From Chromera velia (Eukaryota > Sar > Chromeraceae): DNA of 60,843 nt. Each line of letters begins with the position of its first letter. Position 1 is the stretch's first letter. The stretch covers positions 46,062-106,904 of the forward strand of contig JAHBMJ010001151.1 in assembly GCA_018398765.1 (NCBI GenBank), written 5' to 3'. Positions 3,028-54,500 of this stretch are shown piece by piece. A program made the position numbers and the translations under genes. Under the pieces are notes generated by a model. The model was not told the origin of the DNA. It was given only the letters and a program-made list of their open reading frames with translations, and ran no database searches.

Positions 3028-3552
3028 GACCCCAGGCGGCCTGTTACACCCCAGGCAGTCAGGGGGTCTTTCTGCATTCTCTCTATAGTGTAAAAAACGT
3101 TGAAAAAAGTTTAAAAATACCTTTATTCTAGGAGTTAGTATCTGAACGCAACTTTAAAGATTGATTTACAATGCTTTAAATTAAATCAGTAAATCAAAAT
3201 TTTTATATAATTCTAGATATTATTTTATAGAAAAGAATTAAATCAAATTTTCTGAATAATTTTCCAGAGTAAATTTCTACTCTGCGATAAGTTTATAAAC
3301 AATGCAAAGTTGCATGTGTCACTTTTTGTTTACTTAGATTGGCACCTCCCAGACAAGCTCGAAATCTTCTGCCTCATCATGGTGGTGAGGGACACAGGCA
3401 TCGATTACCTGTGTGAATGTTCTGCGGCGGTTCTCTTCAGCTACAGCCTGTTCTTCTGCATGCACGTATAGATCGCGAGGTCATGTCGGTGCATCCCTTG
3501 CGCAGACCCGGTCGGGCACGTGCACCGTGGTTGAACTTCGTGACGACAAGTC

Positions 3553-3584
3553 GCCCTAGGCAACTCTCAACAACTGCCTAGGGC
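3553..3584. repeat. perfect 10-bp hairpin (GCCCTAGGCA / TGCCTAGGGC)
   Basis: The two 10-bp arms at 3553-3562 and 3575-3584 are exact reverse complements around a 12-nt loop. The arms are themselves largely palindromic (CCTAGG). This is the first of several GC-rich inverted repeats in an otherwise AT-rich block. Confidence 0.8.
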
Positions 3585-3613
3585 AGCTCTATATATAAAC
3601 TTAGGCAAAACCA

Positions 3614-3690
3614 CCTGGGGTCGCCCCAGGCGGCCTTGGCGGGCCGCCTGCGGCGTGCCTGGGGTACCCCAGGCGCCCCAGGCAGGTTTA
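3614..3690. repeat. cluster of GC-rich palindromes
   Basis: CCTGGGG TCG CCCCAGG occupies 3614-3630. The perfect 18-bp palindrome GCCTGGGGTACCCCAGGC occupies 3657-3674. The related words GGCGGCC and GGGCCGCC lie between them, and CGCCCCAGGCAG follows. A related CCCCAGGCGGCC word occurs at 3030-3041. The block could fold into a multi-hairpin structure. Its origin is unknown; a foldback element or a structured RNA are possibilities. Confidence 0.75.
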
Positions 3691-4892
3691 GACAGCATGG
3701 TGACAAATATCTGTTGTTCAAGTATTGCATAAGTGTTGTTTTGGTGTTGCACAAGTGTTGCTTAGGTGTTACACAAAAAAAAAGAAAAAAATAATTTAAA
3801 CTAATTCGGGTTTACTTTTTTTTTTTTTTTTGCTGTGATACGTCTAGTAGAATCCACAACTGATAAGCCAAAGAAGCCAACCGATGAGGTATTAAAAAAA
3901 AATACATTTTTTTTTTCTTAGTTTTCTAACAGGCTGAGAAAACATTTTTCTAACAATTTTTCTATATCACTTTTATGTACTTTTGTAACATTTTTCACAG
4001 GGAAGTACAGGGAAGTTTTAACAGCGTTTTAACTTTCTTTAGGTTTTTTTTCTTCTGCATCATACAGACTGCATGTGATGAACGTTTTTCATTTGAAGAC
4101 AACCTGCTAGATAGACTGACACATTTGAAACAATCACACCCAATCAGATGCACAGACAAAATTCTCTGACTGCCTCACACGCAAAACGGCAAGCTGAGTC
4201 TTAGCTAGTCTTAGCTAACAACTGGGAAAGTCTCCGGAAAGAAGAAAGGAGAACCCACACATCCGTTCTTGACGGCGGAAGAATCAGGATGCGTTCCTTT
4301 CTTTGTGACACACCATGCATGCATTTCCCGTTTGGATGACACTGAATCCATGCATGCAAAATCCCTTTGGATGACACTTCCTGCAGGCAGTCCGAGCAAA
4401 CAAAAAAAACAAAGTCTAGACCGAAGCCTCACTTTCAATCGCTTCATCGAAGCCCGCTGCCTACTCGATCGGGCCAGGCGGAAAGATCAGACAGGTACAT
4501 GACTGCCCGCTCCAAGCCTCCTCTTCTCTGCAGCTTTTCGTCTCCTTCCTTTGCGCTCTCCGCGCATCTCTTCTTATTTCTTCGGCTTTGCAAGACAAAG
4601 ATGAGGCCTCCCTTTCTAAGAGAATGACATGCCCCTTCCGACATTTCAAGTCTCTGAAGCGTTTCATGTCGACTCCCTCTCCACTTCAGCAGACGTTCCT
4701 GTCCTCTTTCATTTTCTTGCTTGTATGCAACAAAAAGAGAAAAGGACAGGCACTTCTCCACGCTTTCTGCTGATGTTCAGTCCAAAAATATGCAAAAATA
4801 TAAATCACAGCGAGCACGACACCTTCACCACCACAAGCATTGCATGAAGCAGATTCAGCAGTTGCTGAAGCCAACAATCTCCTCTCGACTCT

Positions 4893-5750
4893 TTAGTCGT
4901 CCCAATAGTCACCGCCGTACCCCCCCCCAACCACGTAGCCGCCGCCCACAACGCCCCCACCGTAGCCACCGTACCCCCCCCCAACGGCTCCGTATTCATA
5001 GCCGCCGCCCACAACGGCGCCGCCTCCGAACTTCTCTGCACCCTCAGCCTCGGCGGCTTCTTTTGAGACCTGTCCACGGAGATGGGGCTTGGGTCGCGGG
5101 TCGGCTGCAGGCTGCACGCAGAAAGGAATACAGAAGAAGATGAGGACAAAAAGCCGTTGGGGGCTTCGGGTTTAGGGAAGCTTCGACCGAACGAACGAAT
5201 TTGACGGCAGCAGATACGTGATTGTAAAGGAATAAGGAAGGACCGAACGAATTTGACGGCAGCAGATACGTGATCGTAAAGGAATAAATAAGGAAGGACC
5301 GAACGAATTTGACGGCAGCAGATACGTGATTGTAAAGGAAACGTTTAGGGAAGGACCGAACGGATTTGACGGCAGCAGATGCATGATTGTAAGGGAAACG
5401 CGGAAACACTGTGCAAAAGATGAGGACAAGCACCTCGAAGTATAGGCAGATCGAGGGAAGTTGGCAGGATGAAGAAAGGGAAAGAAGAAATTAAAGAAGA
5501 AGGAAGGACGCACCGTCTCAGGGATTTCTTCGATGCTCACCTCCTCCTCCAGAGGCACCGCTGGGCGTTCCTGAGAGGAGGTCTGAGGCTCAGACACCTG
5601 GGGCTGTGCAGACGCGGGAGCCTCTTCCGCAGCGGCAGCGGCAGGGGAGGGGGAAAGAGAAGGGGCTGGATCCACAGCAGGCGCTGCTGGAGTCTCCTGA
5701 GCAAGTGCCGACGCAATCCCTGCAAGAGAAATGAGGACTGCGAACTTCAT
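4893..5750 (-). CDS. small secreted Gly/Tyr-rich protein (2 exons)
   Basis: Model: exon 1 5514-5750, exon 2 4893-5111, phase-0 intron GTGCGT...TGCAG, 151 residues, TAA stop. Residues 1-17 (MKFAVLISLAGIASALA) form a clean signal peptide ending before QETPAAP. Residues 18-79 are Pro/Ala/Ser/Glu-rich. The exon-2 tail is built of GGGY, GGYGG and GGGVVGGGY units and ends DYWDD. Such Gly/Tyr repeats occur in extracellular structural or wall proteins, so a secreted matrix or wall role is plausible but inferred. The intron carries a 56-bp minisatellite and stays open in frame with exon 1, so retention would replace the Gly-rich tail with a hydrophobic repeat tail. I do not recognise a named family. 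Confidence 0.6.
5186..5401. repeat. intronic minisatellite, about 4 copies of a 56-bp unit
   Basis: The core GACGGCAGCAGATACGTGAT recurs at about 5202, 5258, 5313 and 5370, each copy preceded by GACCGAACGAATTT-type sequence and followed by GTAAAGGAA. Copies differ by a few substitutions and small length changes. The array lies wholly within the intron of the secreted Gly-rich gene. Confidence 0.85.
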
Positions 5751-6566
5751 TTCGACCTGTTCGGATGAGCGAAAAGAAAAAGCGACGTGGTCCGGTGACC
5801 CAGGTATGTGATTTTCGAGTAGGACACGGGGGAAAAATCAAAAGCCCACAGTGCCCAAACGAGATGCTGTCCCTGTGTCTCGAAGTTCTGCTCCACCCTC
5901 CAACCGCTGTGCACAATGCCGTCTAAGTTACAGTGTAAGGATGTCGAAGCCTCTAGCATGGCTCGAGCAGCATTTCAAATTTCCAAGTTTTTCGACTCAG
6001 AGAAACTGAAACTCAGAGATGCGAGTCTGCCTTAACTGCGCTAGCCGTCTCGTCGCGCGTGCGTCAAATCTTTCCGGGGTCATTTGCACTCCGTGCGAAT
6101 GGCCCGGAAAGCGAAATTGACTTTGGATTCGCAGGCACTCGAGAAGATCTCGAGAACTGAGTTTTGGAGCTGAATTAATACCGGCCCTGTATAGCACGAT
6201 TTGAGTCTTCATGCATCCCTCTTTTCTCTGTCAGACAACGGAGAGCTTCGATCTTCCTTGAGACGCTGGTTTATGGTTTTCCGGAGAAGCGACAGCGGGG
6301 GTTGCCTCTGTTCTCTGGGTGACATCCGTTTTTGTTTGTAGCTTCGCGTCTCGTAAAAATTTGTCCGCTTTCGGTTACCTTCGATCTCTTCCTCCAGAGC
6401 GCCGAAGCTTCCCTGCCTTCACTTGATAGTTGAATTCCTTGGCACCTGTTTGGAAAGGTGTGGAGGGGCAGAACTGGAAGAGGAGACCGAATAAACGCAA
6501 GACTTTTCTTTCTATCCCTTCAACCAACCGCGGTGGACACCTAGTAAAGGAACTAGTGGAAGAAGG
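5751..6566. promoter_or_regulatory. divergent intergenic region (secreted protein / TPR gene)
   Basis: About 816 bp separate the start codons of two head-to-head genes, so this interval should hold both promoters. It contains the second copy of the 27-bp dispersed repeat (6086-6112). I cannot point to a specific core promoter element. Confidence 0.4.
6086..6112 (+). repeat. 27-bp dispersed repeat, copy 2
   Basis: This is identical to 1335-1361 and in the same orientation. It is preceded here by GTGCGTCAAATCTTTCCGG, which also resembles the GTGCGTCAGATCTTCCGG found about 110 bp to the right of copy 1, so the module order is rearranged between the copies. Confidence 0.75.
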
Positions 6567-8560: not shown

Positions 8561-9741
8561 TATCATGAAACTCTGTTTGTCTGTCTGTGCAGGCCCTGGA
8601 TGTCGGGAAGCACGCGAAGGCCTTCTTCCGCAGAGCCCAGGCCCTTATGGAGTTGGGGGACTTGGAGGGAGCACGTTCAGATCTGAAGGAGGCACAGGAC
8701 CTCTGTCCTGAGGACCAGTGAGTATCTCTCTCTCTGTCTGGCTGGCTGCTGTCTGACGTTGTTTTTGGTTCAGCGATTGGGAAGCAATACTACTTCCCTG
8801 AAGGAGGATCATTCAGAAGCCATCCACCTCTCCTTGGAAAACCTCGGGTAAAGCCGCTATGGTTCGACACCGCACTGCTCTGTTTGAATGATCTTGCTTC
8901 GCACACTCTCTGTTTGCATGACCCCAACACAGTAGAAAAGAGGTGGACAGACAACAGATCTACGTAACTTCTACCGACCTTTTTCTTTTTCTTCGTTCTG
9001 TGGAGGACAGCTACTCATTCGTCTTTCTCTTTTTCATGGAATCAAAAAGATTCCCCTGACAATCATTCTTTCATCAAGTAACGATGGAGGAGACACAAGA
9101 AGACCCCGATTTCCCCCCCCGTGTCCTCCTTATTCCTCCTTCCTTTCTTTCATGCCGTCCATATGGCTGACAAAGACGTTTCCTCCCGGCCCCCTCTTGC
9201 ATGGTTGCAGCGCTATCCATACAGAGAACAAAAGGTTGAACAAACTGCTTGCGGAACACAAGCAGAAAGAGCGGGATACGTACGCGAAGATCTTCGGGTC
9301 CTCTGGAGCGGGCGACGACGACCACTCGAAGGACAGCAAGGAAAACAACAAGCCCAACAGCAGCAGAGCGACATCTGCCTCCCGGCCTGCTGGAGGGGGA
9401 GCAAAGTTGTCTCAGGAGGTGAACGGGGGGACGTCTGCTGCTGGAGGGAACGGTGGGGGGAAGAAGGGAGCGGGGGGGCCTACCTCAAGCATCAGCCAGT
9501 TGACTGCGGATGAGCCCAACGGGCACCGGGACAGTCCGCGTACAGGAGGAGCAGGGGCAGGGCCCTCACCGTCGAAGGGCCCAGGGACCCACCAGACGGC
9601 CGCCTCAGCAGGGAAGGGGTCCGGGAAGGACGGCGCAAAGCTGAATTGGAATGGGGGGAAGGTTAGTAGGCAGAGCAGAGAAGAGAGAGCAGTGAGAGGA
9701 GTCCAGATCAATCTCCGCTTTCTTTCAATTGCCTCTCTCTC

Positions 9742-9791
<50 letters not shown>

Positions 9792-9882
9792 CGAGTGTGT
9801 GTCTGTTTGTGTATACAAAAGAAAAGCGTGAAGAAATGCCAGGTGTGCCTGTGACTTCGTATCTGCGTTTGCATGCGTGTCC

Positions 9883-9926
<44 letters not shown>

Positions 9927-9959
9927 TGCGCTTTTATGCATGCGTGTGTATCTATATAT

Positions 9960-9999
<40 letters not shown>

Positions 10000-10281
10000 T
10001 GTGTGTGTGTGTGTGTGTGTGTGCGTCTGCAGTCCAAGACCGCGTCCTCGCCCCCACGAGAGAACGCGGAAGCTGAGAAGGAGAAGGATGGAGGAGCAAA
10101 GGACAAGTCGTCAAAAGAAAAAGAGAAGGACAAAGACAAGGAGAAGAAGAAGAGAGACAGGAAGGAAAAGCACAGGGTGGACAAAGAGAAGGACAAGGGG
10201 GGGCAAACAGGAACTGACGGGGGGGCGGGTGCTTCGGGGGCTGGGGGGGAGAAGAAAGGCCCGATTGTGATTGAATATTGA
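6567..10281 (+). CDS. TPR co-chaperone with Hsp90/Hsp70 carboxylate clamp (7 exons)
   Basis: Model exons: 6567-6609, 7182-7292, 7569-7621, 8035-8154, 8593-8717, 9211-9661, 10033-10281. All phases agree and give 383 residues ending in TGA. Residues about 20-150 are three TPR units of the type found in FKBP51/52, cyclophilin-40 and AIP: AHKAAGNELFKEGKHKEA, then LLNMSFAHLKTQNFKRA, then AKAFFRRAQALMELGDLEGA. The five clamp positions that grip the EEVD tail of Hsp90/Hsp70 are present: Lys24, Asn28, Asn89, Lys118, Arg122. The following helix (RLNKLLAEHKQKERDTYAKI) matches the seventh helix of immunophilin TPR domains. No isomerase domain precedes it. Residues 175-383 are Gly/Ser-rich and then strongly Lys/Glu/Asp-charged. 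A cytosolic chaperone adaptor is inferred. Exon 3 is the least certain; it was chosen because it restores the frame. Confidence 0.8.
8420..8565. repeat. (TCTG)n microsatellite tracts in TPR intron 4
   Basis: Two TCTG-rich tracts (about 8421-8458 and 8530-8560) flank a TTTC/GAAG-rich segment within the intron between 8154 and 8593. They account for the long Cys/Leu/Ser-rich open frames here, which are not genes. Confidence 0.9.
9733..10022. repeat. (CT)n, (GT)n and (TA)n tracts in TPR intron 6
   Basis: CT repeats at about 9733-9788, GT at about 9887-9925, TA at about 9951-9996 and GT at about 10000-10022 fill most of the intron between 9661 and 10033. The branch and acceptor region follows directly (TGCAG at 10028-10032). 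Confidence 0.9.
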
Positions 10282-18212: not shown

Positions 18213-21200
18213 ATTCTGTCTGTGAGAGTGCCGTCCTGCTTTTCCCATTTTGAGCACTCCGCTGTCCTTCCAAACGACCGACCGACCCTGCAGCTTCTTG
18301 AGGTCCTCTTCTTCCTTTCGAAGGAGGTGCAGGCACGGCGCCTCCCTTTACTCCCATAGGGCTTCCCTCGAGCTCTGCAGTTGCTGACGCCTTTAGTCCT
18401 TGGCCTGCGAGTGTTTGCATTTGAGGCAACGCAGAGCAAAGGAGATGCAGGGGCAGGACAGACGACGAGAGGTCTGGTCTGTGCTCTGCGAAGGATCCGG
18501 TAGGGAAGGCGGAAGAGAAAGCAGAGGACGACGAGGGGGTCCAGGGAACCGCAGAGGATCGGCTGCTGAGGGAAAGACAGAGAGCCGCCAGACACCCCTC
18601 ACCCCCAGACCCGAGAGCCGTCTCTGTGCACAGAGCGGCTCTGGCTAGACGTCGACGTGCCCTGTTGGACAGTCCGAGACACACTGATTGTCCCTCATCC
18701 ACCTTGATGGATTTCGGGAGGATGATGTGAGCAGTTTTGTCCTTGTCCTTCTGCGCAGGGCTGTCAGCTGACGCTGGCGGCTTGCGGGTGGGAGGACCAA
18801 AAGTCCAAAGTTTGGCGGCTTCGAGTGCGGTGTCGAGGTTTTCTGGGTCCTTCAGGGACTGTGTCCCCTCATGTGACCGTGCTCTGGAGACTGCAGACAC
18901 AGAATCCACAACAGCACGAACACTCGACGGGGCATTCTGAGAAGGTGCTGCGACTCCGCTGGTGACCATCCCGAGAGAGCCGGAGAGACACCGGAGGGGT
19001 GCAAACAAGACCGGATCCTCCCTGAATGCCCTCAGCATGGCTTCACGCTGTTCCTCTTTCTCAGCCGCCTCTTCTAAAATGACAGAGGTCTTTGCCATCG
19101 CCTTCTTTGCCAAAGCCTTCAGCCTGGAGTGCCGACCTCCCTCTGCACCGACACTGAGACTCTGTTGGGCTCTTGGCGGTGCTGTGGGATTCGGGCGCGG
19201 AGACGGTGAAGCGCCTCCGGAGACAATCCACTCTATGATTGTTCGAATTTCCTCATACAGACGTGCCTGTCGCTTTGCAGAGAGAACGGAAAACATGAGG
19301 GGGCGGCACTCTGGAAGGACGGTCGAGACTATATGCCCCAGTACTCTCCTGCTCCCTCGTCGCTGATCAAGCTCTGCAACCTTCATGCGGGCTCTGACTG
19401 CAAGGGAACCCTCTGAGGGTATGCACAGATTCACCACTGCATCCAGTCCCGCTAGGTATTCATGGAACAGCGTTGCTGCACATTTAGTGGTCTTCAGATT
19501 CGGAGGGCCTGTCAGGGAGAGGGGAAGGCCGAAAGGACTTGCAGTGGGAACTGCAGAGGCTCCCTGTCCGTCTCCACTCCTTAAGGCCAAGACGGCATGA
19601 GTGTAGGCCAAGAGGAACACACCCCGTTTGAAGACACCTCGGAGGAGGGCGTGCAGGAGAGCAGCAGTCTTTCCAACATGGAGGGCTGACAGCGCCCCCC
19701 GAGCGCCTTTAATTTCAGAGTCGAGGTCAGCAGCTGCAGCATCTTTCAGGGGATTGACGGAAAAAGTGAAGAAACTGGCGCACGGATGACACTGTGCGAG
19801 TCCCCCCACTAAAGGAGGGCCTCCAAAGTTTCCCGTAAGCTGGTGCCTCGCTGAGAGAACAGCAGCGAGGCGCACCTGGTCGGGCAGCCTTCCAGACCGC
19901 GGTATCATCGCAGCGACTGCCTCCTTCTCCTTTTCACGCACCAAATCCTGCTGTGGCTGCTGCTGCTGTCGTCCTAATTTGTTTCTTCCCGGACCCCACT
20001 GTGTATCTTCTGCTGACTTCTGTAGTTGCACTTTATCGAGTGCCAGTGAAGATCTGGAACGTGCTTCTGGTCTGAAGGGGTCTGTTGACGGAAAGCGATT
20101 ATAGGCGGAGGCGCCGATGCCTGTCCCCAAAGCCATCCGCACAAGACCCTCAAACCTCGTGATGGATCCGTGCTGTGCCAGTGCGGCCAGAGCTGGTGAT
20201 TTCTTCCCTCCAGCGTTGGACTCCCCTTCACGTCCCACAGGTACGTTGTGTTCAATATCGAAAGGGGAGAGGCGAGACGGAGACCTTCCTATGATCTTCA
20301 CACACGAGGAGAGAATGTTGGAGGGGAGAAGATCAGGCAGTCTGTGCGCAAAGCTCTCAGGCAATCTCAGCACCAGAAGCGCACCCGGTGCGATGTTCAT
20401 CCCGCCCCCCGGCCACCCTCCAAACGACCCACTCACACCTTCACCTCCACCTCCACCCGCTGCCAGAGCGAGCGCCTGTCGTTCTGCCGACCCGACGCCC
20501 GCGGACCCTGCGACCCCCGCCCCACGAGAGAACGCAACCAGTCTCTTACCGAAAGAGTTCGAAGACCCCTCAGTGATGTCCGAAGCTTTGTAGAGATCCG
20601 ACAGGGTCTGTTTGGCTGCAAAGGAAAAGCCAATCGCGGGAGGCGCCGAGGGCTCTGGGAGGCAAGCGAGGGCCTCTGCGATTTCCGGCATCTCCAGATC
20701 TGTGCATGTCAAATGTTCTCTCGGCCCTCTTGCAAACAGGCCATGAAGAACGCTGCGTGGTGCCTCGACGTAATTTCCAGACAAGGCTTCCAGACGTGCC
20801 GTGGGGCGGGGATGCGTCCCGCCTGCCTCGGTTGTCACCTCCGCCCCCGACACTGGGGGCAGCTCCATACGGCAATCTGCAGAGAGGCACGGGGGGGGGA
20901 AGGAATCAATTCCGTATTTCACCATTCGAATACACAGCTGCAAAAAAAAGATGCAGACACTTCCTGAGGCCATCGAAGGCATTGATTGAAGACTTCATAA
21001 AGGAAGGGAACCAACAGTCCACCTCTTGGACATGAGGTGTAGGAAAAAACACAGGGGGGAGCGAGAGAAAGACTGGCACATTCGTGGTACCATAATTCGG
21101 AAACACAGCAAGGACGCTTAAAAAAAAGAACCGACCGAAAGCTCCGGCAGGGCTCCTGACAGGAGGAAACCTAGTTGTGGGGACGAACCCAAACCCTACA

Positions 21201-28900: not shown

Positions 28901-31900
28901 CATAAAAAGGATTAGGGAGATACCATCCTTCATACCGATTGGACACAGGCCCTGTGGAGATCCTCATCGGGTTCCAATCCGACTGCACTCCCAAAGAAGT
29001 CGTCGGAGACGGCTCTCCCTCCCCGAACAGAGGCGTGGCAACAGCAACAGACCGTCTCCAGTCGGTGAAGCTCTCCACCTTTGGATTCACCGACTCGCTT
29101 CCCTTTCCACTCGAGGCAGACCCCCCCTTTTCCGACTCCTTTGGCTGACTGCCTCTCTGGACTGATGAGGCCTCTGAGAACACTCTCACCGGGCCGTCTC
29201 CCCCCCCGGACGCCTGGACTCCCACTTGGCGGAATGAGACGGAACGCGAGGGGGACTGAGAGGGGGAGATGGAGGGAGCTGCGGACGTCTGCGTGACAGA
29301 ATCACCTCCGTGAGCGGGGGAAATGAAAGCCCCAGAGTGCTGGAATAGATGAAGCAGAGACGGCATACCTTCCCCTGAATGATCTGTGTGGTCTCCCCCT
29401 CCTTTCAATCCCGCATTGTGCTGCCACTGGGATACAAGAGCCAGACGACACAGGGGATCCGCTCTGAGTTTGAGAACATCTGCAGCAACATGCTTACAGA
29501 CCAGAGACTCTAACGCACCCGCGGCGTGTGCAGCAACGCCTGCGGTTGTGGCAGCGCTCGGATTGAAGAGCAAAGAGGACCCGGGAAGCGTCTGGGCGTG
29601 TATCAAATGTTCCCTTCCTTCACCTGCAAACGCATCACTTTTTCCCCTTTCTCTACTCTTCTCTTGTTGAGTCTTTTCAGATTGTTCTTTAGAGTTTTCT
29701 TCTCCGTCTCCCTCTTTTTCCGCCTCGTTCGTGTCCTCTCCTGAAGTCTCCCGGACAATCCCCTCCTCCTCCCCTTCTACAGCTGGGGCCTCTTCCGGAT
29801 GGACTCCTGCTGTTGCATCGGGCTCTGGATTTTCGGAAGGACGCGGGTTCTCCTGGCCTTGATCTGTTCCCTTGTTTTCCTCCACTGCAGCCTGGGCTTG
29901 CTTCTGCTGCTCCTGTTGCTGTTGCTGATGTTCTGGCGATTGGGCCCGCTGAGCACCAGAAGGACCTACCTGAGGGGGAGTGGTTGCCTGCCGTTGCTGC
30001 GATTGCTGTTGCTGATGCTGGCGCTTGTGTAGGACAGTAGGTATGATGAGGGAAGCAGCAGCGTCTTTCTCAGCCTGCTTGGAGATCAACTCAGGTGACG
30101 GGGGGAGGCAGACAAGAGCACGGTAGACATGGAGGAGATTCTCAACAAAAAATGCAATCACGGTTTGATCAGGTGCCACTCTGACATTGTCCAACTCCAT
30201 GCGCAGCGTCTGCAAGGGAGACTGCCAAGCAGAAGAGTTCCCGTCCTCTTCTTGATCTGGGTCCGTGAGTCGGGCTCCTCCCAGTGGATCGTTCCACTCC
30301 TCCGTCACCAGATTCAACCGAAAGTCTCGGTCATCGATACACTGAGGGTGTTGTGGGGGAGGGGCGCGGTCGGCCCACAGGAGAGATTGGCGCATGAGGT
30401 CGACATCACAGAAGGCTCGGAGACGCTCCTTTGCAATTAAATGAAGCGTGGTGTCTGTCAACGGACCAAAGAAAAGTCGTTGGACAAAAGGGGCTTTGAG
30501 AAAGGGGAAGAAAGGCGAGGCACTTCCGAGAGGGCCCCCGACAAATCGGTCGATTCCGCCGCTCCCACATCCACCCCCTCTTGAAACAATGACGATGCGA
30601 ATATGTGGAAGCACTAGAAGTTGAAGGGCAATAGCTCGAAGACTCTCTTTTGAAATCCAATGGGAGACCTTCAAATGAGGCGGAGGTGTAGCAGCTCCCA
30701 TGGAGAATTCGGATTCTCCCAGATCACGGTGAGAAATTGCCATCGCCTTCAATGCGCCGTGCGTAGAGCTTGCATTGTGCCTTGCCCGAGTGCCTCTTGC
30801 TCTTCTAGGAGAAACTCCAGAATCCTGGTGGCGCGGAGAGGACAGGGGGACCGCCAAAGACGTCTGCGGAGGCTGGATCGAGACAATTCCAGTGACATCG
30901 TCACACACCATCTGCCCGCTCAGTTGAGGGTCAAGAGGAGGTCCTGATGGGCCTCCTGGCAATGTTGGTGTCGGACCTCCACTCATCGCTACTGCGGTTG
31001 GGGGGGAAGGGGAGGAAGGCCCTCCTCCTTTTGCTTTTGTGGTCGCGTGTCTGGCAATTACCTTTCGGAGTGCGCTGCTGTCTGCTTCCTTCGTCAATTG
31101 TCTGCAAAGATCGAAAGTCTTATCGAGGCACTCACCCGCTGCTGCAACCAGCCCCTTTCCCTCCTCGGATGCCCAGTCATCCACCCGATTAAAGAGGCCC
31201 CAGAAAGGCGCGACACCCCCCAGCAGGTCTGCAAGCGACTCTTCAAGCAGCTGTGGAGCTCCGATGAGGTCCTCGGCATTGAGAGTGAGGACAATGGAGC
31301 TGGGTGAGGGCACACTCCCACCAGCACTGTTGGTCTTCTGTGCAAACGAAGGGGAGGCTGAGGTAGAATTGAGTTTTTCCTTCTCGCTGTGTTTCACCTG
31401 AGTATCCCACAGAGAAGTCAAACATTGCAGCAGCCGTCGGCGTGACCGTTCTGCATTCGGAAGCCCTGACACCGTCTCTGCCTTATCAGCTCCCCTCAGC
31501 ATGGCCTTGTAGGAAGATTGGAACCCTGTCGGCATATCCTTTTCGGGGGTCGCTGCTCTTGGGGGAGCTCCGGTTGACAGCCCGTGGGTTGAAGGGTCAA
31601 GGGATGTTGCAAGGTCCTCCATCAACCACTTCAAGTCGGGGGGACACTTGCGAAATTGGGAGACGACTGCTAAGCGGGAGCGCACGCGCGAGACGCCAAT
31701 TGCACACGCTTCTTTGACGACGTGCTGCAGCACAGAGCGAAGACGCTCCTTCACTTGTGCCTGCCTGGTGTCCTCCGCTTTTCTTGGACATGCGTGCACT
31801 GCCTGTGCCACCTGTCTGTGGAGTCGTCGCTCATCAATCGCGTCTCTCCACGCGTCTTCCCCTTCATATGCAAACTTTTCCAGATTCGACAGAGTCAACT

Positions 31901-34900
31901 GACAAGCAGATTCCACATCGAGGGTGAACACCTGAGCAGGTAGCGACATCAGGCGATGTCCCAAGAGGGTGCAGGCAAGGTGGAGCAGTGTGTGTTTTCC
32001 GCTCTCTGGAGGACCTGAGATGATCACACACCGCCCGTGGCTTGGAGCAGAGAGAGCAATCATTAGGCGAGAGAGACGAACCAGGAGAGAGGGGGAGAGA
32101 ACGACGTGGCGACCGGCCCTGTGGCCTCTGAAGGCAAGACAAATCCCCTCTCGGGCCCCCACGGGGCGTACAATTTCGTCGCCTGGATGGCTCCCTGTGC
32201 ACGCAAGAACGCCCACAGGGTCTTTACGGCACAGTGCTTCGATCCCTTTCCGGATCGCGTTCTTTCCAGCAGCTTCGTAGAAGAGACGGAACGAGGGAAA
32301 CAAGCAGCCTGAAGAAGAAGAGTCAGCCTGCTGACTGCTTTCTGGTGCTGTCGACCCAGGCTGCTTCAGTCCCCCATGGGCGGGCGTCTGTTGTTGTGGT
32401 GTCTGCCCTCCCGCCTCTGTCGTCACGCCAACTGGCATGAAGGACTCTCTATTATCCCTTTTTCCGCCTTGGATCGAACGACGGTGAGCGGCTGTTGAGC
32501 GTCGTGCAGGAGACGGACTCGGCTGCTTGACCAGTTGCGTGAGGGGTTGCAGGAAGGAGGGCAGACAGAGAGAGTTCGAGAGCTCCTCGGCCAACCGAGC
32601 GTCGGCCAAAATCTCAGACACTCCAACGGATACCTCTTCCATCGTTCCGTCCTCGTCCCCTCTCTTCAGACTGGTAGAGCCGTTCCGAGACTCTAGCAAT
32701 TCATCTGCCTCGCCCAGACAATATGCTCTTTCTTCTCGCAGCAGAGAGGAGAGCTCGGGAGCGAAGGATGTCTTGTGGCATTCTTGCAAAGATTCAAGCA
32801 GACGGTATCTGATTTCGCGGCTTGCCTGACGGACAGAAACGGGCAGAAGGCTACGCGCTGCCTCAGGAACTCCCGCCGCCTCTGCGACTGCTGGTGCGTG
32901 CCCTGCTGCTGCGAGTGTGTGCCAAAAAGGGATCAAGGCCTCTGTCATGGCGTCGCCCCACTGGACAATGAGCGCACGTGCAAGGTTGTTGATCATCTGC
33001 GTGTGTGCTCTCTGATCATGGTGCGGCTGTTTGGTGCCTGGTATATGAATGCGTTCGTCCCGAGCAGCGACGGGAGTCGGTGGGAGGTCGATTGAGGGTG
33101 TCTGTTGCAACGTCAGGCGGTTGAGGGGTCCAATTAGGTCTCCCAAAGTCCATGGAGGCTGCAAAACTGTAGAGCTTAGAAGAGTCGAGCCAGCAATGAG
33201 TCCACTTGCTGGAGGTGTGTGCTCTGTCGACTTTGGGATCTGCCAGGGGAATGCGAATTCCCTCGAGAGTCCTCCCAGACTCGACTCCGGAATGGCAGAG
33301 AGCTGCCTCGATAGGCTTTCGTGGAACTTCACTGTGGCTTCGCAAAGCGCTGACAGGTGATCAGCAATGTCAGTCGGCCACCCCATCAGAGCGGCATTGA
33401 ATGCCGATACTCCAAGGAAGATTCTGCTCATCGATGCAGAGTCGGTTTGACACAGAGGAAGGGCGAAGAAATGACGAAGAACCCTGTTGAAACCTTCAAG
33501 ACGCTCACATGGGAAAACATCACCCCTGCAGTCCAAATTCCGACACGAAACGATGAACCCCACACGGTCTACCCGTTTGAATGCCCTGCAGTTCATGGTC
33601 CCGGTAGGCAGTCGCGGTTTCTTGTCCTCTCCCGTCCCTCCCTTTTCTGAATCTAGAGGTCGGAGGGGGTACGCCCTTTCAATGTCCCGAGTTTGAAGGG
33701 ACCGACGATCAAGCCATCCCCCTAACTCTGCATATTGGCGGAACCACTCACCCAGCGCCTGCCCTCTACGACCTGCCAAGGGTTGAGAAGGGCCGAGAAA
33801 ACCCGGCCGACCTAACGGCGCCCCCCGGGCCCCCGACCCGCAACCTTCAGCCATGTCTTCGAGGGTGTGTGCGGGACCGCTTCCGCACTGCCCCCGGAGA
33901 GAATCCAGGTAGGGCTGGAGGCTGAGATCGTCGACCAAGAATAGGAGGTTTGACTTGCTTGGGGGTCTCCAGACTTTGCACCCAGGGGGACCCGCTTCCT
34001 CTAGGTGCCTCTCGACCCTTCCTTCGAGCTGACTGGCCGTCGAGTGGGGTGTCAGGCCAACAGAAGCAGTCAACCAAGACGGACGGCTCCGAGGATACAC
34101 CGTCTCAATCGGCAACCGCTTGCACGAACCTGCCAGAGGATCTCCCATCCAGTCACCATCACTCCATCGGGTGTTGTAGGGAGTCAGAATGGGGGAGGTT
34201 TCGGTCTCTTCATTTCCAGAACCCCCAGCAAGGACAAGAGAAGACGAGTGCATGAAACGAAATGCCACGGCCCGGAGCGTCTGGGACTTGCCGGACCCTG
34301 CGGGGCCGATCAGCAATGCAGGTGAGTGCCTTAGCGCAGGTAGGAGTGCTTGCAGGAGTGAATTGTTTCTCTCTGTCACCTCAGTGGGTATCTGCAGGGC
34401 CCCGAATCGCACAACATCGGGGGTCGAGGGGAACCTCGCAGACTGTGACTGGGGAGAGTGGGTCCATGGCACCCACGCTGTAGGCATCAGGTGGGACCTA
34501 GAACCTCCTCCACCTCCTCCGGCACTTCCGCCTCTGCAGTCAGACAGAAAGGAAGGACAAATCGAGGTGTTCGAAGATATTGACAGACTTTCCAGAGGAT
34601 GATAACTAGCTTTCATCTTGAGTGAAACTCATTTTCTAATACACATTTTCGACCTGCTTCTGTTCACGTCGCCTTCGAAGCCAGCGGCCATGAAACTACA
34701 AATCGCTATACAAGAAAACAAAAGCGGAACATAAGAACGAACGAACGAACGAACAAACGAACGAACGAACGAACGAACGCACGAACGAACGAACGAACAA
34801 ACGAAGGAAGGAAGGAAGGAGGGAAGGAAAGAAGGAAGGAGCGAAAGAAAAGGACCATAGAAGACAGGAAAAGGGTACTCTTAGAACAAAAGAAATCCAC

Positions 34901-37900: not shown

Positions 37901-40900
37901 CATCTGTACTCTCTCCCCCCACCTTCCCCCCACGAGACTTCCCAGGATCTCCGTCAAGAGACTCTGACGATTCCTCTCTTTTTGGCTTGGGCTTGGCTTT
38001 TGCCTGAGCCTGCCCTTTGCCTTTGTCGGTCGTGCTTCCCTTTGCACTTCCTTTTGCATTGTTTTGTTTCCCCCCGTCATCTTGATCTTTCCCCCCTCCA
38101 TGCAAATCGGCAACCAAAAAGAGCGCCGACTCGGTCTCCAGCTGCTGCAGAATTTTGGTGGCATCCTCCGTGTGCTCGATTGTGGTGAGGAGGTGAAGGA
38201 AGTACAAGATTACCGAGGAGAGGGGGGCTGAGTTGACTGCATGCCACTCAGACAACTCCATCTCTCTCAGCAGAGGCGGGAGCACTCCCTCAACTCCTGC
38301 ATGCCCTGCAGATCCCTTGGCAGCAGCAGGCTCGTCGGCTCTCTGCAGAACCCCGGAAGAAGTCAAGCAAGCCTCCAGACCGTCCATTCGCCCCGTCAAT
38401 TCTCTGAAGGCCAATGTGTTTGGGTACACAACCCAAGCAGCAACCTCAGCGGCCTCAGGAGATTCTCTCGACTCAAACGCAGGGGTGGAAGCACATCGGA
38501 TTCCCCCATCTGAGGGACCGGGAGAGGAGGAAGGGGAGGCGTTTGGTTTCTGAATACTGTGAGGGGAGGTCTCGTTGAGCTCTGCAGCCACCTGACGCGC
38601 TCCACCTTGAAGTGCTGTGATCGGATTAATCGCTCCATGTGATCCGACAGCAGCCCCAAAGAGCACCGCAGGATCTCTGCCAGGCACTCCGGGATCCAGA
38701 CCGTGGACGTCTCTCAGAAACCGTGGCCATCTCTCTGCACCAAAATGGACAGGACCCCACTCCATCAAGGGGTGGAATCTGTGTGAGATGTTTTTTGGGA
38801 CTTCCACAGGCTTTCTCTTGAATTCCTCTTCCTCCTCTTCTTCTTCTTCTGATTCTCCGTCTGCTTCCTCTCCGTCGTCTTCCCCTTCTTTGTCCTCGCC
38901 ATCCATGACGGAGGAGGACTCACGACTCAAGTCAGCAGCACCCGCATTCTTGGATACATCTCCGCCGTCTACCGTTAGAGACTCATCGGGGTGGTGAGTC
39001 CCGATGTATGCCAGAGAGACATACTCAAAGCACGTGTGGTCTACCGCGCTCTCTGTGGAGGACGGCTCTGGCGCGGCTCTCGGAGAGGTTATGGAGTCAA
39101 TCAGGGACCGGGGAGTTTTCTCTGGGTTTGAGGGCCCCGGCTGTTGGGGGGACCCTTTCTCCCCGGGCTGCGTGTTTGGTGTAGACGGCTGCTGCAGGTT
39201 TGGCGTTAAGCCTCTCCGAGCTTTCGCTTGTGATTTGTATCGTCGCTTCACCTGCAACCTCAAGTGTGCGTCTGCAATCGCGAGTCGTCTTTCTGCGTCC
39301 TCCAATTGTGCAGACACCGCCCGTGAGTGTAACCTTGTCATGCTTTCGGCAAGGATCTGCAGCGCTGTCGTCTTCCCACTCATCGTTGGACCCACAACAA
39401 TCAGGCCCCGACTGTGCCGCAGTGAGGCGTGCATTGTCAGGACAGACTTGAGGAGAACTTCGTGACTGTGGGTCGTCTTCTCATTCTTCAGAGAAAGCGG
39501 GGGACAAGCAGGAGGGTGAGGTCGCTGATCACCATCAACCTCCTCAAGCAAGAGTCTCCTCTGCCTTCCCTTTTCTTCCTCCACCGCCACCCCTGTCACC
39601 ATCCCCTTCTCCCACATAATGTCGAGGGCTGTCTCCCTTACAGACGATTGTGCGTCCTCGAAATCCCTCTCCATCGCAAGACGGGCTGTGCGCACAGCAT
39701 CTGTTTCTGCCGACGGCCGCGCGTCTCCTCCTCCCGCGAGGATTCCCGAAAGGACCGTCAAGTCTGCATGGAGCTCTGGAGGCAGGCGAGACTTCCATAC
39801 AAAAATAAAGGCCTCCACCAAAGCCGCTCGTTCCAGTTCCTCTCGCTCTACTGCCAGGTCTTCACCGTTCTGTTCCGCCTCCTCCGACGAACCCCCTGTG
39901 GCTGCGTGCACTTCCCCCGATGCAGCACTACTCTTCCCCTTCTTTCCAATAACCTCCCCCGGCGCCCACTTGAGCCCTCGCGGCCACCGCCTGCAAGCTG
40001 AGTCAACGGTCCGACGCTCTCGAAGGAGGCGACGGTGCAAAAGAGCGTTCCACACGATCTCGGCACCATCCTCCACGACTCTGTGGAGGAGCCTCTCCGC
40101 CTCCGCGGGGGGACACCTGAGATGCGTCGCCTCACCACCGGCCCCCGTTCCTGCTGTCTCGCCCCTTCGCGTCTCTTCCCTTCCAGTGCCCACAACACAT
40201 CCAGACCCCCTCACCTGGCTGCCTATCATTACCAAAAGATCCGAAGCAGTACGCCACAGGAGGCCAGGGAGGTGCCAGACTGACAGAGGAGAGAAACCCC
40301 GTCTCTCCATCAACAGACGCAATCCCACCTCAGGAGGTGTGCGAACTAAATGGACTGTGCGGAAAGCAGACCGGAGATGACTTGGGACTTCCGAACGGTC
40401 ACACAGACTGTCGCCTACAGGGGTATGGCACCCCAGGGTCATGAACAACGTGAATGTCCGTTTGAAGGCAGCTGGAGATCCGTCCACATTGACTGTCACT
40501 GTCTGTTGGAATACAGAAGACGAGTTGGAGGATTCAAATTCTGCAGCTGAGAGGGGCTTTCCGGGAGCATCCAGGATCACCAGTCTGAGTTCATCCATCA
40601 GTTGACCCATGGCGCCGAGGACGTGGAGGGGAACTGCCTCGACGTTCGTGAGTTCCAACAGACACCCAAGGGCCCCGGCACTCCTCATGTGGGTGTAGAA
40701 GGAGGCCAGACTGAAGAAAGGACCCCGGCAATCGAGGGAAAGGAGGAGCTTGCCTGTCAGATGAGCGAAATCGCGGGTGGTCTCTCTGAGCTCTGGCGTC
40801 TCTTTTGCTCCCTGGATCATGGGCCAGTACTGTGATTTCAAAGTGAGAAAGACGTTCTGTCGGAGCAGCTGTGCATCGACAGAGGGCGAGACATTACACC

Positions 40901-42732: not shown

Positions 42733-42905
42733 AATCAGAGCATGCAACTGGCGGGTCAAAATCAGAAGGTTGTGAGTGGATAGAAAAGGAACTAACGAGA
42801 TGAGTAGGCTAACACCGCAGCGTGGACAAGGTCTGAATCCTCACATGCGTGTTTACAAAGACAGCGAAGAGGAAACAAAGACAGAGAGACAGGGAGACGG
42901 AGACA

Positions 42906-51500: not shown

Positions 51501-54500
51501 CTATGATGTTGGGCTCGGAAGTGGTCACGCAGGGAATCCACACCATCTCCATCTCGAAGTTTTCGGCAATCTCGCGGAGGGGGTGCCACGATGGGTCCGT
51601 GGGGCGGCGGGGCTCTAGAGAGACCTCAGAGAATTCATCCCGCACGGGAATGTATGCGCGCATCTCCGCTGCATGCATACGCGGACATCAACAGAGAAGA
51701 CAGTGACGTGCAAATTCATGCACACAGACACACGCAGAGTATGTATGAGGTATCAGAATGAATGCGGAGAAGATGGAGTGAGTGCTTGGTGATGGTTTCC
51801 AGGGGAATTTGACACAATGGCAAGGAAGGAAAAAGTTGTACATATTTCTCCCCTGTGGTATTTCTCCAATCGAAAATTTGATCCTTTTTCTTCTCTATCG
51901 TGCTTGCATATCTTTCTCTTGTCTTTCCGATTCGTCAGTCGGTCTATCTGTCTCTCTCTCTTTCTCTTCTATCTGCTCGCTCTTGCTGAGGCAACGAAAG
52001 ATTCAAAGACGAAGGATGGGAGGCTTCCTCTGAATATCAAGATGGTCTGTCTCTTCGCTTATAATCCCAACCAGATGCATCCTCCCCCCCAGGAGCCCCC
52101 CCCCTGACTGACCCAGGGTCCCCACAGGAATGCCCTCCGTGGTGTCGTACGAGGGCTCCCCTGGCACGCCGACGTCAAACAACTCGAGGGGCAATGAGTG
52201 GAACCCCTGCGGCCAGCCAAACATCAGTTAGGTCCAGACAGAGACAGAGACACGGACAGGGACGGGGACAGGGACAGAGACAGTGGGACAGTGAGACAGT
52301 GAGAGAGGGAGAGAGGGAGACAGTGAGAGAAGTCAATCAAGATCTTTTGGATGCAGCAGGACGACACGAAGGAAGGAATCTGACACTGCAGAATTAAATC
52401 TCAATCTCCTGCACTTTCATCGGAATGCTTGATGTATTCAGAATGCCTTCATGGGTCCGAGAAGCTGCTGCATGGATGGGCCATACTGTTCGAAATCGAA
52501 GAAGCAAGAACTTGTTGCAGAATTAATCTTCAGGGCCTTCTTTGGGTCTGGCTGGCGGGTAGACGAAATAACGAAACTGATTCCATTCGATCGTGTACGG
52601 AAAAGGGAAAATCCGCGTTTCAGGACGACAAAATGAGAGACCAACAGAAAACAAAAACTGACTTGAATTTGATCAACAAGCGTTTGGTAATTTTTGGCTC
52701 TCGGGGACGCGGCAGAGCCCAGGCGTACGGTCTTGAAGATATCTCCTACCGTTGAGTCCATCAAGAGAACCTTGGCGTCTCCCGTGTTCTCCAGAGCCTT
52801 TCGGTCTCCTACTTCGGCTCCAAATAACTCGGCATCGCCGTGAACCATTCCGAGCTCTTTCGCTTTTCTGAGCCATGAATCGATCGCGGCTTGTTCCTCC
52901 GGAGTTGCTTGAGTAGGCAAGTGACGCTTGAGAGGTTTGGGGTCACCAGTTCCGTCAGCTGTCATTTCAGCTGCAGCATCTGAGACAGGCCCCCAGAGTT
53001 TCTCAAATTCTTCAAAATAAACGTCCCTCTCCCCCTTTCCACCCTTGACTAAGTCGACAATCCTGTGATACATGTCACTTGAGAACACCCGAGGTGCGGT
53101 GACCTCAAAGTCAAGATTCTTTAGGGGATTGCCTGAGCTCGCACTTCGACCCAGTTCCGTTGAACCGACTGAGCGTTTGAGGGAGGATGCGTACAACCCT
53201 GTCCCCCCCCGACTTGGGGAGAAAGTCCGGGTCAGGGACGACCCTTCAGAGACACTTTCTCCACTGTCGAGGCCTGAATTTGCATTGGAGCTGCTGGATG
53301 AGCGTCGTTCGAACTGCGGGCATGACACGCTCAGAGGAAGGGATTCGAAAGGGAGGGCGCCTATGGAAGAGAATTTTGTTGCTCTCGGTTCGGTGTTCCC
53401 TCGTTCACTCTTGCGGGAGAGCGGAGAATTTGACTGCCAAGCAAATTTCTGTCCATGGTCGGCTGGCGAGTCGTCGGTGACTTTTGACGCCATCGACAAG
53501 ACGCTTCCTCTTTTTGATGGCAGAGGGGAGTAAAGTTGTGGACGGAACGCGGGGCTTTCTCTGCTTGGTCTCTTCTTCTTCAGAGCATACGATTGGAGGT
53601 GCTGCTGCTCTTGACCAGAAGGGTCGAAGCGGGAGAGGTGGCCGGGAATGAAGTAGCTCAAGCGGCGTGCTGGCAGATCCATGGGGGGAGATGCCGATAG
53701 GTCAACAGGGGGGGTAATGAATGGTTGAGAGGCCGACCTGCCTGGGAGGGAAGGAACACCTACCTGGACACGGTCTTGTCCTGCGGAGAAGGATACGCGA
53801 GACGGACGGGGGGGAGGAGCTAGGCCGGAAAGGGAAAAGGCAGTTGCTTGAGATGAGGACTGGAGAAGCGTGACCCTCTTCGGCGATTCGTTTCGTTTTG
53901 CGTGAAGGGGGCTGAGGAGTCGACTGCTGCTGCTCTCAGGTCTTTGTTTCCCCCTGCTGGATCCAAAGTGAATGCCAGAACGCTGCTTCGACAATTCGGT
54001 CGGCCTATCCAGATCTAAGTTAGTCTCCACATTTGCTTTTATGGGGATCTGAGAGTCTCGTGCTTCATTTGGATCTTCTGTGTACAGAGCAGAGGTCGTG
54101 AGGTTTTGTGAAATGTCCGCTTGGTCGTCTGCTGCCTCGATGATGTGATCATCATCGTCTGGTTTCTGTATTCTGATGATTCCGTGGGGGGATCGGATGG
54201 TCGTTCTTCGTCTCTCCCTTTCTCGAGCTCTGGTCCCTCGAGATTCTCTCTCTATTGCTTTGCTTCTTCCCCCCTTCCACCTACCTATTCCCGCTATAAC
54301 ACCAAGTCCAGCCGAGACGCCTCCCTTTTTTTTTGCCTTCCGGTCGACACCCTCTCCCTCCGCAGGTCTCTGGACAGACTGACTCGCCTGGAGGGGTTGA
54401 GGTGTGGGCTTTGTGGTTGTCGCATCAGACGAGGGCAGGTCAGGGAGGAGGAGGAACGAAGGGAGAGGCTGGAGTCCGACTGGAGCCATGGGGCACATGG

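Follow-up and report, generated by a model that had tools for sequence, protein, structure and literature searches.

A very divergent dynein heavy chain homologue of Chromera velia with lost AAA1 ATPase motifs

In dynein heavy chains, the Walker motifs of AAA1 follow the consensus strictly and motility is powered by hydrolysis at this site, AAA2 is believed to keep its ATP stably bound, and, in dynein-1, the nucleotide state of AAA3 alters microtubule binding (passages of PMC6103457). DNHD1 is described as an orphan dynein-related heavy chain that is considered atypical and is perhaps a pseudogene in the making (passages of PMC8754002), and its loss disorganises sperm flagella (passages of PMC9916431). 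Over-long heavy chains occur in alveolates, given that the seven dyneins of Plasmodium falciparum average ~6,000 amino acids (passages of PMC2674469). A heavy chain that combines P-loops in AAA2–AAA4 with a dead AAA1 was not found described in the titles, beginnings of abstracts, and selected passages that made up the literature surveyed. Here, we report a candidate for such a protein, encoded in a stretch of 60,843 nucleotides of the chromerid Chromera velia (GenBank assembly GCA_018398765.1, contig JAHBMJ010001151.1), which we refer to as the window.

The window protein resembles axonemal heavy chains in having a DHC_N2 linker, detectable AAA3 and AAA5, the same order of modules, and P-loops in AAA2–AAA4. 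Unlike these chains, it has no AAA1 Walker A motif, Walker B aspartate, or sensor I and is very divergent, and it is two to three times the length of the axonemal chains in the PDB (~3,960–4,730 amino acids). DNHD1, compared by description only, is likewise an orphan, atypical heavy chain, of 4753 amino acids (passages of PMC9916431) versus the ~11,300 modelled here; the heavy chains of P. falciparum, also compared by description only, are over-long, as is the window protein. A further parallel lies in C. velia itself, in which a second gene, on contig C3656, shares the DHC_N2 linker, the lost AAA1 motifs, and the retained P-loops of AAA2 and a presumed AAA3.

The window gene was modelled on the minus strand at 51678–12692 as 14 exons encoding ~11,324 amino acids, using a splice and codon script of our own that was trained on the long frames of the window and admits only GT/GC-AG introns. 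AAA1 sits inside one long exon (modelled borders 42677–36918, in a stop-free frame of 2020 codons) that also carries the end of the linker and the P-loop and Walker B region of AAA2, and its flanks align in a single frame. All strings quoted in an initial annotation of this DNA, according to which AAA1 had lost its ATPase motifs, were found on the minus strand and could be given coordinates. The residue range of 3,950–5,870 that it had proposed for structural comparison with AAA1 was not reproduced; our model gives 3,164–5,896, a numbering that depends on the N terminus.

The degenerate AAA1 large domain (residues 3164–3356; 40931–40353) was delimited by PDB alignments, a profile from the same genome, motif positions, and a MAFFT alignment. 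It starts with the string EYGWELQ (40931–40911), and its Walker A position, placed by string and PDB alignments, reads GAKETPELRET (40811–40779), without GK[ST]; at the aligned place, GAPEGPAGTGKTETTKDLA of the best PDB relative corresponds to GAKETPELRETTRDFA in the window. The Walker B position, placed by PDB alignments and MAFFT, reads GCLLELTN (40667–40644), such that CFDEFNR has become CLLELTN. Sensor I was placed by eye at FMTLGCH (40445–40425), in lieu of ITMNPG, and MAFFT instead sets PVGDS at the TMNPG columns; since neither string contains NP, the NP of sensor I is absent under both placements. The stretch that follows, SEVPSHLRSAFRTV (40394–40353), resembles SELPDNLKALFRPV in the other heavy chains of the genome. 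The claimed loss was thus borne out for the Walker A lysine, the Walker B aspartate, and the sensor I asparagine, though not for the Walker B glutamate, the column of which is still E. The Walker A lysine is the residue that binds nucleotide, and the Walker B aspartate the one that binds magnesium. Judged by its residues, AAA1 is very probably catalytically dead.

A normal AAA1 P-loop located elsewhere, the finding that the initial annotation had named as contrary to its claim, did not emerge: the strict pattern G....GK[ST] occurs once in the six frames of 36.9–47.9 kb, in AAA2. A loosened pattern, [AG]....GK[STQH], has seven matches in the model protein, namely those of AAA2, AAA3, and AAA4 and four at residues 1075, 1181, 2959, and 8352, which were rejected as AAA1 P-loops because they fall in low-complexity or basic sequence that the AAA1 alignment does not include.

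The assignment of this stretch to AAA1 was examined by several comparisons. A phmmer search of the exon against PDB sequences gave eleven matches at E <=10, ten of them dynein heavy chains (one labelled only AAA+ ATPase), and all five alignments displayed extend from the EYGWE region across the lost P-loop to Walker B. The best whole-sequence E of 1.8e-5 sums the AAA1 and AAA2 stretches; the best AAA1 stretch alone scores 13.3 bits (E 0.072). Own-genome searches covered 177.8 Mb in 4040 contigs, in which the window is contig C1150, positions 46062–106904, up to the contig end. A profile of twelve intact AAA1s from this genome scores 16.6 bits on residues 3140–3400 (E 1.8e-7 for one sequence), and the best score among 2000 shuffles (973 reported) is 6.3 bits. 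Speaking against the assignment, the same profile gives the AAA1 place only 1.9 bits when run over the whole 11,324-amino-acid protein, and Pfam AAA_6 matches over no more than the final 38 positions of that model, where AAA1 borders on AAA2, with 21.2 bits, below the cut-off of 25.2. On these comparisons, we regard the assignment as supported but weakly, and the domain as recognisable, if badly eroded.

The P-loops of the following modules are kept, as the initial annotation had stated. That of AAA2, GPTMSGKT (39392–39369; string and PDB alignments), is intact, and a Walker B-like string, NWLVFDGA (37364–37341), was placed by eye against WLVLDGEV of a heavy chain on contig C1603. AAA3 (34307–33924) has the P-loop GPAGSGKS (34307–34284) and the Walker B motif LFLVDDL (33944–33924) and is detected by Pfam AAA_7 (26.7 bits, cut-off 25.8) as well as by an own-genome profile (17.9 bits). 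AAA4 (32015–31266) was located by its P-loop string, GPPESGKH (32015–31992); its Walker B region, IVLTLNAEDL by eye, has no clear acidic pair, which leaves AAA3 as the foremost candidate for an ATPase that has been retained.

The start of the linker (44373–43762; model protein ~2109–2312) matches Pfam DHC_N2 with E 3.2e-20 and 72.8 bits (cut-off 31.9), and the own-genome DHC_N2 search finds the same place. Dynein heavy chains were also what PDB sequence searches turned up with the linker, with the AAA1/AAA2 exon, and with AAA5. For the linker, 9fqr_Xx and 8j07_g3 (DNAH3) match best, both with E ~1e-6, followed by DNAH12, 7, and 1; 9fqr_Xx (4069 amino acids) is labelled malate dehydrogenase 1B and is a heavy chain judging by length and alignment. 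AAA5, with the join that leads to it from the second coiled coil of the stalk (26415–24781), matches Pfam AAA_9 (E 2.3e-7, 30.6 bits, cut-off 27.4) and PDB dyneins, and an own-genome stalk profile gives the join itself 12.8 bits. The DHC_N1 tail domain had no Pfam match in window pieces P0004, P0010, and P0011, divergence being too high for this absence to count. Searches with further pieces yielded little: P0001 had one other own-genome match, a weak one to an AAA2 start on contig C18 (E 0.78), and the nine own-genome matches of P0004 comprise itself and eight others (E 0.003 to 0.92), all within its last hundred residues. No relative of a 296-amino-acid AAA1 piece was found in prokaryotic genome contigs, nor of P0001 in viral contigs, absences that mean little because these collections hold prokaryotes and viruses. 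The sequence is very divergent and is expanded by low-complexity inserts; by these matches, the protein is recognisably a dynein heavy chain homologue, albeit a very divergent and insert-rich one.

The heavy chains of C. velia were gathered with Pfam AAA_6, AAA_7, MT, Dynein_C, and DHC_N2 on the assumption of one gene per contig, so that all counts are lower bounds. At least 15 contigs bear a dynein linker or AAA1 (14 found by DHC_N2, plus C3728). The AAA1 P-loop is kept in 13 of these 15, as GPAGTGKT in twelve and as GPAGAGKS on C1603, and is lost in the window gene and on C3656. The twelve include the ordinary heavy chain of C4005 (contig positions ~31676–32056), in which an intron splits the P-loop into GPAGTG and KTETVKD. 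Contigs C2533, C1021, and C2261 were left out of the count: they bear stalk or C-terminal pieces without an AAA_6 or DHC_N2 match and may continue other genes. Rejected as heavy chains were C3498, which has one AAA_6 match (25.6 bits) and no match in the other family searches, and C1056 and C248, the weak AAA_7 matches of which look by eye RNF213-like and FtsH-like. The C1056 frame runs for 1000 amino acids (C1056:8800-18700, plus strand, frame at 3592) and has an AAA module that is RNF213- or midasin-like by eye.

The gene on C1603 (C1603:1-13400, minus strand) is divergent and insert-rich and has kept its AAA1 Walker motifs (GPAGAGKS, CFDDFDQ); it served as a divergence control. Columns conserved at >=90% among the twelve intact AAA1s in a MAFFT alignment comprise 20 motif and 50 other columns. 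The window keeps 3/20 and 16/50 of these, respectively, C3656 keeps 3/20 and 17/50, and C1603 keeps 12/20 and 31/50. For the motif columns, C1603 and the window differ with p 0.008, a value that is only indicative given that columns are linked and that the sensor I columns of C1603 are poorly aligned. Counts obtained with hmmalign for the window (2/20 and 4/50) say little, as that alignment starts only at ETTRDFA.

The second gene with lost AAA1 motifs lies on the minus strand of C3656 (C3656:52000-60600 and C3656:48500-51999) and has two intact later P-loops. It came to light because the DHC_N2 search matched this contig (linker, 88.5 bits), whereas the AAA_6 search did not. By phmmer, the next frame resembles PDB dyneins in the end of their linker and in AAA1, with 16 of 18 matches of heavy-chain length and a best E of 0.0013; among the 18, one is labelled RSPH9 and one AAA+ ATPase. 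The P-loop position reads PAGGVDGTASFQD and the Walker B position GAWVNFRIRS, and a later frame bears SRLPSHLLGVCRPVAVVHPP. The assignment of AAA1 follows from phmmer and position: the P-loop stretch is matched neither by Pfam AAA_6 nor by the twelve-AAA1 profile, which finds only the post-sensor-I stretch at 6.2 bits (6.9 for the entire sequence; exceeded by 1 of 2000 shuffles, of which 942 were reported), and the frame at 55753 alone has no PDB match. By order and motif, the intact P-loops GAPGTGKT and GPPASGKS, the latter followed by ILDDL, are presumed to be those of AAA2 and AAA3; the own-genome AAA3 profile gives 1.0 bit (E 0.017) here versus 17.9 bits for the window, and AAA3 is thus not confirmed in C3656. 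The C3656 linker is the best own-genome match of the window linker among 13 fragments (z 9.8), though it is also the longest fragment. Between the two genes, the C part of AAA1 aligns with a score that 3 of 1000 shuffles equal, and the N part of AAA1 (z 0.3) and AAA3 (z 1.1) are not above chance. We do not claim that the two genes are sisters.

The stalk candidate (28772–27042; position and helix prediction) consists of a first coiled coil from 28772, a tip at ~27578–27288, and a second coiled coil from 27287. An AAA6-like stretch, AGGAVVLLRDAHLL (21322–21281), was found by eye only, and a stretch resembling the dynein C-terminal domain (15492–15412) aligns pairwise with a score that 7 of 1000 shuffles equal; for another stretch, 903/1000 and 60/1000 shuffles are as good. 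AAA6 and the C-terminal domain had no Pfam match and no match to a two-sequence profile, and no dynein appeared in the PDB search of piece P0005.

The model starts the gene at 51678, but the protein may in truth begin further upstream. Just upstream, a separate four-exon gene was modelled on the minus strand (57258–52004; 1,333 amino acids), which may be either the missing N terminus or a gene in its own right. The modelled exon at 20937–18092 probably takes in some intron at its end, where the sequence looks intronic. Consecutive long minus-strand frames span the window, with stop-to-stop lengths of 2020, 2532, and 1704 codons, introns included. These lengths are increased by pyrimidine-rich intron sequence, which on the minus strand translates as FFLSFFLS and stays open; examples are the frame at 42734, at its 5′ end, and the intron 28394–27906, in its middle. 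Outside the dynein-like gene, the plus strand has an open frame of 444 amino acids at window positions 8936–10270.

The reading that we favour, with confidence and doubt about evenly balanced, is that the gene is a real, highly divergent, non-motor dynein relative with a dead AAA1, the product of which would act as a tether or scaffold linked to microtubules, gated by AAA3 and unable to step, with the axoneme as its most likely site; the mechanism is the weaker half of this reading. The initial annotation had suggested a conserved non-motor or regulatory dynein relative. Its non-motor part is well supported by the loss of AAA1 motifs, the kept P-loops of AAA2–AAA4, the very long open gene, and the similar gene on C3656; that the relative is conserved is a supposition, and that it is regulatory an inference. 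In such a protein, AAA1 would persist as a structural part of the ring without normal ATP binding or hydrolysis, and the linker power stroke would not be driven as in motor dyneins, since the Walker A lysine, Walker B aspartate, and sensor I asparagine of AAA1 are gone. A structural nucleotide is probably still bound at AAA2. AAA3, by virtue of its P-loop and DD Walker B and by analogy to AAA3 gating in dynein-1, is the likely remaining switch gating the ring, and the protein could then serve in the flagellum as a nucleotide-gated tether or scaffold that is linked to microtubules and does not step. An axonemal location is the most likely one because the linker resembles those of axonemal heavy chains. 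The protein might also accompany catalytic dyneins or pair with them, a role comparable to that of Vik1 towards Kar3. In the kinesin pair Kar3–Vik1/Cik1, a motor fold without a nucleotide site serves as partner; the likeness is one of idea only, kinesins and dyneins being different superfamilies.

Several observations weigh against this reading. In the window, the motifs are not hit significantly harder than other columns (3/20 versus 16/50; Fisher p 0.23), and general fast divergence alone could therefore have removed them; the case for a dead site accordingly depends on which residues vanished and not on an excess of change specific to the motifs. The glutamate column of the AAA1 Walker B is still E. 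Statistics lend the microtubule-binding tip no firm support: with the own-genome profile, the stalk and tip region scores 0.6 bits, a value reached by 208 of the 1829 shuffles reported, the pairwise tip alignments are matched by 484/1000 and 19/1000 shuffles, and a structure search with the tip fold gave no clear match, which leaves the tip placed by position only. AAA6 and the C-terminal domain are likewise without firm recognition, and the axonemal placement depends on a single domain, the linker. High divergence throughout, low-complexity inserts, and several domains below Pfam detection would also suit a decaying pseudogene, or ‘ghost’ gene, in which AAA1 was lost first and the rest is drifting, as has been contemplated for DNHD1 (passages of PMC8754002). 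We consider such decay unlikely in view of the open frames (2020, 2532, and 1704 codons, chained into 11,324 amino acids) and the kept P-loops of AAA2–AAA4 and DD of AAA3; C3656, with its dead AAA1 and live later P-loops, points the same way. The modelled splice joins add no independent support on this point, as the model demands splice sites by construction.

An error of sequencing, assembly, or splicing that conceals a normal AAA1 is conceivable insofar as a single assembly was used and the intron-split P-loop of C4005 shows that a P-loop can be hidden in this genome. Three separate motifs are lost, however, while the intervening and flanking sequence stays alignable in one frame, and C3656 is alike, which makes an artefact very unlikely; the DNA of the AAA1 piece is present once in the genome, and the only strict Walker A pattern in the region is that of AAA2. 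The protein might instead still be a motor, with force derived from AAA3 (or AAA4) or from non-canonical nucleotide binding by AAA1, as the Walker A and LVDDL motifs of AAA3 and the Walker B glutamate column of AAA1 could be taken to suggest. This is improbable given that the Walker A lysine and sensor I asparagine of AAA1 are gone, that AAA4 has no clear Walker B, and that it is AAA1 that drives dynein motility (passages of PMC6103457). A further possibility, which we doubt less, is that the gene is an orthologue of vertebrate DNHD1, which would be an AAA1-dead heavy chain of ancient origin that serves the structure of flagella; the presence of two AAA1-dead genes in this genome suggests that such losses can recur, which speaks against it. 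As regards a motor powered by AAA3, we know of no precedent.

Dynein heavy chains, DNHD1 as an oddity among them, and the over-long chains of Plasmodium are known already; the loss on C3656 is new here. Beyond the favoured reading of the window gene, we tentatively propose, as an idea that may well fail, that it forms with C3656 a small class of AAA1-dead dyneins kept in this lineage, heavy chains of full size in which the engine has been removed and AAA3 has become the main switch, and which would be nucleotide-gated microtubule tethers, possibly as dedicated partners, either to one another or to catalytic heavy chains. If this were true, heavy chains with a linker, a ring, and AAA3 but no AAA1 would be natural tools for the study of AAA3 gating and of linker docking without a power stroke. 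Orphan heavy chains such as DNHD1 would then appear in a new light, as potential members of a non-motor class that recurs, which is testable because one genome has 13 live and 2 dead AAA1 sites.
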